Positions 2,483 through 5,488 of a DNA stretch of 64,000 nucleotides are shown in pieces. Under the pieces are notes generated by a model, which was not told the origin of the DNA, searched no databases, and saw only the letters and a program-made list of their open reading frames with translations. Location of the stretch: positions 1,426,001 through 1,490,000 of the forward strand of contig NZ_CP151792.1 in the NCBI RefSeq assembly GCF_038446525.1, written 5' to 3'. Origin of the DNA: Methanolobus sp. ZRKC5. Its GTDB lineage: Archaea; Halobacteriota; Methanosarcinia; Methanosarcinales; Methanosarcinaceae. Numbering within the stretch: position 1 is the first letter of the stretch; each line of letters starts with the position of its first letter. The position numbers and the translations under genes are program-made.

Positions 2483-2779
2483 ATGCATATTATGCAGGAA
2501 AAAAGATATCAAAAGGGCTACTTCATGGCTATAGGCATTGCTATTGGCCTCCCCCTCGGGATTCCTATAGGCCTTATGTTAGGCATGATCGCTATGGGAC
2601 CGGCAATTGGTGTAGCTCTTGGAGCAGGAATTGGAACATATCTTGAAAAGAAGTATAACCCGAATCCTTTACCAATGACACCTGAGCAGGAAGCTCAAAG
2701 AAAAAAAGTTGTTCTGGCACTTGGGGCAATCCTCCTGCTGGGAATTCTAATGTTTGTTGCTTTGTTGATGATAAGTTGA
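2483..2779 (+). CDS. Small glycine-rich membrane protein
   Basis: 98 residues. Residues about 15-50 form a Gly-rich hydrophobic segment with repeated G-xxx-G spacing (GIAIGLPLGIPIGLMLGM, then GVALGAGIG), like a glycine zipper. A second membrane helix occupies residues 75-97. The first ATG (2483) follows a TATA-like TTTATATATT by only about 20 bases, suggesting a nearly leaderless transcript. A start at 2492 (MQEKRYQ) is equally possible. Function unknown. Confidence 0.6.
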   Translation: MHIMQEKRYQKGYFMAIGIAIGLPLGIPIGLMLGMIAMGPAIGVALGAGIGTYLEKKYNPNPLPMTPEQEAQRKKVVLALGAILLLGILMFVALLMIS

Positions 2780-3301: not shown

Positions 3302-4843
3302 TTATTTGCGTTTGCCAAACATCACAGCAGCAAAGAGACCGAACAATCCCACTACCAGTTCAAATCCGGGACTGGATTCAGATGCCTGAGACCCGGCTTC
3401 TTCTGAAACTGCGTCCATTGATTCGATTTTTTTGAGCTCTTCATCACTTATCATCCTCTCACCAACGATCATAGGATCCCCGTCATACCCAAGAGCAGCG
3501 AAGTCCATGGCATCATCGTCAAGATGGCAATCTTTACATTGAAGAGCACCCTCTTTTGGTGCAACTTCATGATTTATACTTTCATACAGTGATGTTTCCA
3601 CGAATTCATACTGACCACTGTAGGGCATATCTACATAATCCATACCTGCCTTGGATGCCCGGTCCCAGTCATATGCGACCCAGTAGGCGTCCTCGCCTCC
3701 AAAAAGGTCAGGGATTATGAGGTAGTTGTACTGTGCATCACTGATCTGTTTTGCAAGATGGATCTTGAATGGATATATCTTGGAATCCACATCATACCTG
3801 TCACCCAGTGGAGCAGTGAGAACAGTAACTCCTTCAGGATCTACTTCATCCCCAAGGTAATACTTATCAAAGCTACCATTGAACCAAGCATATGTTGGAG
3901 TTACATTCATTTCCCAGATAAACTCACCCTTCATCATGTTGTAAGTGGCTTTACCGTATTCATCCACAGGTACCGTATCAAGATCCTGTCCTGCTTTAGA
4001 CCAGTCCCAGTACATCTTTGTTGGCACTTCCCGGGCAAATGCGGGTACGTGACAGGTCTGACAGGCAATGGAATCTGAGTGAGCGTCAAGGCGTTCTTTG
4101 AAAACTCCCTGATGCGGCGTGTCTCCATGACAATCAGAACACAAAACCCTGCATTCAGACCCCGGAACACCAGCAAAGCGACCTGCGACATTGTGTGCAG
4201 TCGTCTTGTGACAGTTCTGACAGTCAAAATCCATACCACCCATGTGAACATCAAGCTCTCTTGAAGGCTCAAGTAGCGCAGATGACATATCACCGTGCTT
4301 TACGTTGTCACCACCACCACCGAAGAAGTGGCAACTTCCTCCACATGTCTCACGTGACGGACTTCCTATACTCTGAGCTACGGCTACAAGATCAACAGAA
4401 GAATCAACAGCTCCTGCACCTGTGGGTATTTTCTTGTATGTACCTGTTGTCTCGTGACAGACCACGCAATCTATGTTCGATGCATTGGTGAAGTCAAAGG
4501 TCTTGTCCGCCCAGCCATACCCTGTGTGACAGGAAGTGCATCGTGGTTCATTTGAACCTATGGCTACACAGAAATTATTTATCACTGTGCGTTTACCCAA
4601 TCCTTCGTGCGATTGTTCCTCACATCCACACTCTGAACATGTTGTCCAGAGCCAGTGAGTCGAATTCAGCATGTCTGTTGCCTGCTGGGAGTGACATGAA
4701 ATACAATCTGCAGTCACATCCGGTCCTTCCTCGTATGGGCCGGTAAGGAACGAATGGTTCAGATACGCGGCAGAAGAGGAAAAGGACAAAGCTATCAAGC
4801 AAGCAAGCAAACAGGAAAACCCAACGTAAAAATTGTGTTTCAT
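3302..4843 (-). CDS. Surface-anchored octaheme-type cytochrome c (tetrathionate reductase/MmcA-like)
   Basis: 513 residues with a signal peptide (about residues 1-26). Haem-binding CxxCH motifs lie near residues 47, 102, 126, 208, 235, 261 and 436, and there is one CxxxCH (CGGSCH, residue 167), so eight sites are likely. An extra cysteine cluster, CSECGC followed by EEQSH (69-79), may be an atypical haem site. The C-terminus, SPGFELVVGLFGLFAAVMFG plus basic residues, is a PGF-CTERM anchor processed by archaeosortase, placing the protein on the outer face of the membrane/S-layer. The haem spacing resembles octaheme tetrathionate reductases and the Methanosarcina multihaem cytochrome MmcA, which acts in extracellular electron transfer. 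No rnf genes are adjacent. Confidence 0.85.
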   Translation of the reverse strand: MKHNFYVGFSCLLACLIALSFSSSAAYLNHSFLTGPYEEGPDVTADCISCHSQQATDMLNSTHWLWTTCSECGCEEQSHEGLGKRTVINNFCVAIGSNEPRCTSCHTGYGWADKTFDFTNASNIDCVVCHETTGTYKKIPTGAGAVDSSVDLVAVAQSIGSPSRETCGGSCHFFGGGGDNVKHGDMSSALLEPSRELDVHMGGMDFDCQNCHKTTAHNVAGRFAGVPGSECRVLCSDCHGDTPHQGVFKERLDAHSDSIACQTCHVPAFAREVPTKMYWDWSKAGQDLDTVPVDEYGKATYNMMKGEFIWEMNVTPTYAWFNGSFDKYYLGDEVDPEGVTVLTAPLGDRYDVDSKIYPFKIHLAKQISDAQYNYLIIPDLFGGEDAYWVAYDWDRASKAGMDYVDMPYSGQYEFVETSLYESINHEVAPKEGALQCKDCHLDDDAMDFAALGYDGDPMIVGERMISDEELKKIESMDAVSEEAGSQASESSPGFELVVGLFGLFAAVMFGKRK

Positions 4844-5191: not shown

Positions 5192-5488
5192 TTAAGCATG
5201 AATAACTGCCAGTGTGTTGCTGAGAGTTGCAAGAAGACCAATAAATGATACAGAATACCTTGTGATGTTCCAGTAATACCTGTTTGCGTTCCTGTATACA
5301 TGATATAAGAGGAACATGAACCCTATTTTGAGAGGAATCAGGGAAATGTAACCATAGGTCATGAATATTTCATAAAGAATAGGGTTACCTTCATAAAAAT
5401 AACCTGTTTGCAGTGCATAAACTGTTGTTATAGTATCTCCTAAAACATAAAGGAGCAATACCGGTATAATATCTTTTAGAAAAGTCAT
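5192..5488 (-). CDS. DUF5658-like small membrane protein
   Basis: 98 residues with three predicted membrane helices (about 5-22, 42-62, 72-95). The motif VLLLYVLGDTITTVYALQTG near the N-terminus (L-GD-xTT-xxAL) is the signature of DUF5658-like archaeal/bacterial membrane proteins. A paralogue with the same motif (LFYVLGDFLTTVQALN) is encoded at 53740-54129. Function unknown. The gene stands alone with a weak ribosome site. Confidence 0.65.
   Translation of the reverse strand: MTFLKDIIPVLLLYVLGDTITTVYALQTGYFYEGNPILYEIFMTYGYISLIPLKIGFMFLLYHVYRNANRYYWNITRYSVSFIGLLATLSNTLAVIHA

Follow-up and report, generated by a model that had tools for sequence, protein, structure and literature searches.

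The closest described relatives of the protein analysed here belong to the octaheme tetrathionate reductase (OTR) family, whose characterised members reduce tetrathionate, nitrite and hydroxylamine (PMC4484225, PMC6449678), with tetrathionate reduction of up to 93 umol/min/mg reported in PMC6449678 for a recombinant Beggiatoaceae enzyme. The second haem of OTR is described as Lys-ligated in section 11 of PMC11024163. According to the same paper, the methanogen cytochrome MmcA reduces Fe(III) and AQDS, and mass spectrometry showed that its CxxxCH motif carries haem (PMC11024163, section 6). OTR genes of Methanosarcinaceae, distant from mmcA/rnf and present at a thermosome/biotin-transporter locus, have also been reported there (section 11). 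As this is the locus that we describe below, the presence of an OTR gene in it is not new and is already in print; the new part is a variant of the enzyme with four additional Cys residues. Our searches of the literature found no biochemistry of methanogen OTRs.

The otr gene and its product

The stretch of DNA analysed in this work (hereafter the window) comprises 64,000 nucleotides of the complete, 3.05-Mb genome of Methanolobus sp. ZRKC5. The gene of interest, hereafter called otr, starts with ATG, ends with TAA and is flanked by two small genes that mark the edges of its slot. The mapped features are as follows, with their basis in brackets.

2483..2779, forward strand: 98-residue membrane protein, flanking the otr slot on one side (kept beside OTR and in OTR-less genomes)
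3302..4843, reverse strand: otr, OTR family c-type cytochrome of 513 residues (TIGR04315, phmmer match to 1SP3, fold match)
3305..3370, reverse strand: PGF-CTERM-like sorting tail, residues 492-513 (PF18204)
3524..3538, reverse strand: haem 8 motif CKDCH, residues 436-440 (motif and 1SP3 alignment)
4049..4063, reverse strand: haem 7 motif CQTCH, residues 261-265 (motif and 1SP3 alignment)
4127..4141, reverse strand: haem 6 motif CSDCH, residues 235-239 (motif and 1SP3 alignment)
4151..4153, reverse strand: fourth extra Cys, C231, in SECRV (clade comparison)
4208..4222, reverse strand: haem 5 motif CQNCH, residues 208-212 (motif and 1SP3 alignment)
4298..4300, reverse strand: K182, predicted catalytic-haem ligand, aligned with 1SP3 chain position 153 (invariance and 1SP3 alignment)
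4328..4345, reverse strand: haem 4 motif CGGSCH, residues 167-172, with one residue more than the CxxCH of bacteria (clade-specific)
4454..4468, reverse strand: haem 3 motif CVVCH, residues 126-130 (motif and 1SP3 alignment)
4526..4540, reverse strand: haem 2 (catalytic haem) motif CTSCH, residues 102-106 (1SP3 alignment; role as given in section 11 of PMC11024163)
4568..4570, reverse strand: putative active-site Cys, C92, aligned with 1SP3 chain position 64 (invariance and 1SP3 alignment)
4622..4639, reverse strand: clade-specific cysteine loop CSECGC, with C69, C72 and C74 (clade comparison, codons)
4691..4705, reverse strand: haem 1 motif CISCH, residues 47-51 (motif and 1SP3 alignment)
4766..4843, reverse strand: Sec-type signal peptide, from residue 1 to about residue 26 (by eye, without twin Arg)
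5192..5488, reverse strand: DUF5658 protein, flanking the otr slot on the other side (PF18902, 33.1 bits)

The initial annotation, made from the DNA alone, had counted seven CxxCH motifs and one CxxxCH, and had pointed to a CSECGC sequence between haems 1 and 2. We recovered the same set, with CxxCH at residues 47, 102, 126, 208, 235, 261 and 436, CGGSCH at 167, and CSECGC at residues 69-74. Eight haem motifs were reached in none of 2,000 shuffles of the protein sequence, the shuffle maximum being two.

The TIGR04315 profile matched the otr product with 548.9 bits (cut-off 375), covering positions 6-440 of the 440-position model, and a phmmer comparison with PDB 1SP3 gave an E value of 1.2e-144. 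All eight haem motifs of the two proteins pair one to one in the alignment. An AlphaFold model of the otr product (mean pLDDT 80.5) has 1SP3 as its top Foldseek match (E value 1.8e-48), and its superposition on 1SP3 yielded a Z score of 40.1 and an rmsd of 2.5 over 416 residues. VIA-align comparisons of the model with hydroxylamine oxidoreductases gave Z scores of 2.5-2.6, too weak for use. As judged from sequence and predicted structure, the otr product is a clear member of the OTR family (TIGR04315), a kind of enzyme known from bacteria. The link to tetrathionate reductases, first drawn as an analogy with their atypical active haem, is stronger than had been supposed, since the TIGR04315 and 1SP3 matches make the protein itself a family member.

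The tail of the protein matched the Pfam PGF-CTERM profile PF18204 with 22.5 bits, above the cut-off of 18.8, and the NCBIfam profile TIGR04126, also for PGF-CTERM, with 18.4 bits, below the cut-off of 24.5; the latter is passed by the OTRs L043 and L045 of the sister archaeal group (see below). The genome also codes for an archaeosortase of the ArtA family (TIGR04125, 268 bits, cut-off 75) and for CcmE. Placement at the outer cell surface by a C-terminal sorting signal, as initially proposed, thus agrees with PF18204 and the presence of ArtA, TIGR04126 remaining below its cut-off. The otr product would be exported by the Sec pathway, anchored through its PGF-CTERM tail and exposed as a c-type cytochrome at the outer face of the membrane. 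Export by a signal in which we saw no twin Arg argues against a pre-assembled Fe-S cluster.

Distribution and genetic context

TIGR04315 hits above the cut-off were found in 17 of the 111 genomes of the family, distributed between the genus of the window (g1, 8 of 27 genomes), Methanohalophilus (g10, 5 of 8), g3 (1) and g14 (3). The gene is below the cut-off or absent in the other 94, which indicates that it is dispensable. Among 392 genomes drawn from the phylum, nine passed the cut-off, all belonging to g1 or g10, and three genomes of family f8 harbour hits below the cut-off with E values <1e-40. A scan of viral contigs revealed no viral relatives of the otr product.

Shortly beyond the start of the window there are thermosome and BioY-like genes (named by eye). 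In OTR-less Methanolobus stretches, thermosome and BioY genes persist in 11/11 cases and that of the OBG-type GTPase in 10/11, and in three of these stretches (L183, L184 and L188) the genes for the 98-residue and DUF5658 proteins are tens of bases apart at the otr slot. The OTR-bearing locus L045 of genus g14 also has thermosome and BioY genes downstream. A fixed slot fits an old, vertically inherited gene with many clean losses; an early gain followed by later exchange through the flanks is an alternative to this history. We identified no conserved operon partners of otr, as its thermosome, BioY, OBG-type GTPase and prenyl-synthase-like neighbours (by eye) are found whether or not an OTR gene is there.

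The active site and a probable selenocysteine in bacterial relatives

K182 and C92 are invariant in all 83 aligned OTRs, the wider relatives being the best 80 of 156. K182 aligns with position 153 of the 1SP3 chain, taken here as that of the haem-ligating Lys, and by homology it would be the ligand of catalytic haem 2. We regard C92 as the putative active-site Cys, given that it is invariant and stands shortly ahead of haem 2.

Among the best 80 of 156 relatives, five loci whose OTR seemed truncated have an in-frame TGA exactly at the C92 position (L055:7277, L059:500, L066:557, L078:7256 and L081:7232, all on the forward strand), and all five belong to the Desulfobacterales/Desulfobacteraceae. 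Past the TGA, the reading frame resumes with all eight haem motifs in place. A bSECIS-like hairpin with a four-base loop starts approximately 18 bases after the TGA, and the 24-base hairpin stretch has predicted energies of -9.5 to -10.2 kcal/mol in four of the loci and -5.5 kcal/mol in L078. The same stretch gave 0 to -5.6 kcal/mol in eight Cys-bearing controls, so that L078 taken by itself is unremarkable. SelB exceeded the cut-off in three of the five TGA genomes; a fourth has a fragment of 201 residues where a contig begins, and the fifth has none. Two of three control genomes with Cys-type OTRs likewise have SelB above the cut-off, and its presence is hence only consistent with selenocysteine. 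A 2026 review lists TIGR04315 among GenBank-annotated selenoprotein families, in an entry that gives no motif (PMC13188914). From these sequence features, selenocysteine is probable at the catalytic Cys position of the Desulfobacterales OTRs, which supports a chemical role of C92 across the family.

The TGA-containing OTRs also harbour an additional Cys two residues before haem 2 (CSCTKCH or CRCTKCH), with a normal CxxCH motif behind it. This Cys is encoded within the hairpin and may therefore be a by-product of the RNA element.

Four additional cysteines define an archaeal clade

C69, C72, C74 and C231 are present in all 14 distinct OTRs of Methanolobus, Methanohalophilus and g3, the window protein included, and none of the 69 other OTR rows has a Cys at any of these four columns (wider relatives being the best 80 of 156). 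In the aligned core, non-haem Cys residues number exactly five in 14/14 clade members and exactly one in the 4/4 sister archaeal OTRs; among the remaining 65 OTRs from the best 80 of 156 relatives, 49 have one, 12 have two, three have three and one has four. The single non-haem Cys usual for OTRs is C92. The CxxxCH motif at haem 4 is likewise found in 14/14 clade members, and none of the 54 bacterial OTR rows from the best 80 of 156 relatives has a non-standard haem motif. These Cys counts exclude L023, L116, L117, L118 and the five TGA-containing loci; loci found twice on the same contigs were counted once, and for L010 and L012 an internal Met served as the start, with the haem 1 part missing.

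The loop Cys residues are constant while their neighbours vary (CSECGCEEQSHEG, CSECCGDEAYEG, CGDCECGEIEAYK, CAACGCEEEHLYD), and the spacing between the second and third of them differs by one residue among clade members. Variation of residues and spacing around fixed Cys residues suggests that the Cys themselves are under selection. A tree computed with the trait columns masked, on 53 of the 86 rows of the larger tree, supports the four-Cys clade (100/99) and the group of Methanosarcinaceae-type OTRs that unites it with the sister archaeal OTRs (100/97). A single origin of the four-Cys set is thus the simplest reading. Since a single branch gave rise to both the four Cys and the CxxxCH, their link represents one evolutionary observation. 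A comparison of the lengths of the two Cys-containing loops gave one or two independent pairs at most, too few to speak for or against a coupling of the loops. Full-text searches of the openly accessible literature on OTRs and methanogens found no mention of the four-Cys set.

Along the sequence, the Cys loop leads into the C92 segment, the CxxxCH lies ten residues before K182, and C231 is four residues before haem 6. The segments of the model that hold the extra Cys residues (68-86 and 210-231) have pLDDT values <50. From the sequence we infer that the four Cys form one local site, which would pin the loops near the active site. As to its nature, we give even chances to a structural Cys4 metal site; two disulfides are possible, and a redox or sulfur relay is unlikely. 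It is conceivable, and proposed here tentatively, that the four Cys create a new metal or sulfur-relay centre at the catalytic haem, a ninth cofactor that would alter the substrate of the enzyme or its gating at the surface of these methylotrophic methanogens. To our knowledge, OTRs have so far been described with eight haems only.

The main competitor of such a centre is that the protein is an OTR whose extra Cys residues are structural disulfides or simply neutral, leaving catalysis unaffected. We give this explanation some credence, somewhat short of an even chance: the protein is exported and four Cys make two pairs, but in the otherwise variable loop ahead of C92 conservation is highest at the Cys, and the habitat of these methanogens is reducing, both of which we count against it.

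Proposed function

Altogether, the otr product is likely to be a surface-anchored methanogen OTR, namely a lysine-haem S/N-oxyanion reductase, with a clade-specific local Cys4 site. In this enzyme, seven haems would pass electrons to the Lys-ligated catalytic haem 2, close to the invariant C92, and a small oxidised S or N species would be reduced there, characterised relatives acting on tetrathionate, nitrite and hydroxylamine. The enzyme of Methanolobus and Methanohalophilus would have gained the four Cys residues, three in the loop to C92 and one before haem 6, together with the CxxxCH at haem 4. By analogy with those relatives, we infer an S/N oxyanion as the putative substrate, and a role with sulfur compounds is plausible on the same grounds. 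In the neighbourhood of otr, we saw no gene of an S- or N-oxide pathway beside it. The electrons may come from the methanophenazine pool, from MmcA or from another cytochrome.

Alternatively, the protein might do no more than conduct electrons to acceptors outside the cell (Fe(III), humics or partner organisms), performing no small-molecule catalysis and retaining the OTR active site as a relic. The surface anchor, the reduction of Fe(III) and AQDS by the related MmcA (PMC11024163) and the presence of a second multihaem cytochrome in the genome are in keeping with such a role. However, the catalytic Lys and C92 would be unneeded in a relic and are kept in 14/14 clade members and 83/83 OTRs, which makes a simple conduit improbable.

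The initial annotation had also suggested that CSECGC and a nearby His replace or modify a haem site. A CxxC pair close to a His, as seen in the window sequence alone, invites this reading, and yet all eight haem sites are present besides CSECGC, each with its counterpart in 1SP3, and the Lys of haem 2, K182, is invariant (83/83). Furthermore, H79, which follows the cluster, varies in the clade (SHEG, RLEG, AYEG, KFSG, AYKD), the second and third Cys are not always equally far apart, and the Cys residues belong to a set of four with C231. A ninth or replaced haem was thus rejected on account of the eight intact sites and the unconserved H79, and we regard it as highly improbable.

Methanogens are usually seen as living by methanogenesis alone. 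If our reading is true, a reductase of S/N oxyanions at their surface represents an added respiration or detoxification. The four-Cys set, present clade-wide, offers a precise handle on whether OTRs can hold a further cofactor, and the two groups of archaeal OTRs, one with this set and one lacking it, lend themselves naturally to comparison. The probable selenocysteine of the Desulfobacterales would mark the residue at the C92 place as chemically active in the OTR family.

MmcA and other cytochromes of the genome

The mmcA gene proper is at another locus of the same genome (G000:C1:2191287-2192837, TIGR04314, 679.5 bits), and the genes right after it are rnf-like, read by eye as rnfC, D, G, E, A and B. 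This confirms that otr is not beside rnf, as initially noted. The otr product scored 43.1 bits against TIGR04314, whose cut-off is 250. The proposed phylogeny against MmcA and OTRs (86 rows) placed MmcA in a separate group, on a long branch with full support, and the outcome that the initial annotation had named as contradicting its proposal, an MmcA orthologue whose gene has moved, was not obtained. That the otr product is an MmcA orthologue displaced from rnf, carrying methanophenazine electrons to the outside, is suggested by 24% identity to the MmcA of the same genome and by the CxxxCH at haem 4 common to both (CGSNCH in MmcA), and was ruled out, leaving it the slightest of chances, by the low TIGR04314 score, the true mmcA elsewhere, the tree, and haem 2 and its Lys, which are kept in the otr product and missing in MmcA according to PMC11024163.

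A cytochrome with nine CxxCH motifs and a PGF tail is encoded elsewhere in the genome (L128:8170-9539, forward strand, corresponding to G000:C1 near 960169-961538). Its gene has an in-frame TAG after the second haem motif. Three further Methanolobus genomes have TAG at this position as well (L132, L137 and L141, the frame of the last ending early), and another four have ATG there (L138, L139, L140 and L143). PylS is present in the genome of the window, and on these sequence features pyrrolysine is possible in the nine-haem cytochrome of Methanolobus. Two near-identical, two-frame transposase-like gene pairs (by eye) were observed, one a few kb beyond the window start (L129:147-1189) and the other right after the nine-haem cytochrome gene (L128:9678-10699). 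A CxxCH pattern search of the whole genome gave at least 100 places, a number that is not a census of cytochromes.

Comparison with known systems

The Methanosarcinaceae OTRs described in PMC11024163 (section 11 and the legend of Fig. 6) belong to the same gene group and locus as otr. Neither the four-Cys set nor a CxxxCH in OTR comes up in the text of these parts, and archaeal OTRs are not divided there into two groups.

MmcA (TIGR04314), a membrane cytochrome of methanogens, is a distant homologue that shares the CxxxCH at haem 4 with the otr product. It differs in having seven haems, without the catalytic haem 2 or its Lys, and in being encoded by the first gene of the rnf operon (PMC11024163).

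The sister archaeal OTRs (L043-L046; Methanosarcinaceae genus g14 and Methanosarcinales CSMAG_1931) have neither the extra Cys residues nor the CxxxCH. L043, L044 and L045 carry a PGF-CTERM tail like the otr product, and L046 is cut. Unlike the otr product, L043 has a CxxxxCH at haem 6 (CMDADCH).

Non-standard haem motifs recur at two archaeal sites, with CxxxCH at haem 4 in MmcA and the four-Cys OTRs, and CxxxxCH at haem 6 in MmcA, L043 and L023. The last of these is a divergent OTR-like cytochrome of genus g14 (genome G105; 239.7 bits, under the TIGR04315 cut-off), which has no Cys at the C92 place (NDFGI) and several non-standard motifs.

The OTR of Shewanella oneidensis (SO4144, PDB 1SP3) resembles the otr product in its fold, its eight haem sites and the Lys of haem 2, and both have the invariant Cys before haem 2. 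The Shewanella enzyme is soluble and periplasmic (PMC6449678), whereas the otr product carries a PGF-CTERM tail. Between the two, the CxxxCH at haem 4 and the four extra Cys residues are found only in the otr product.
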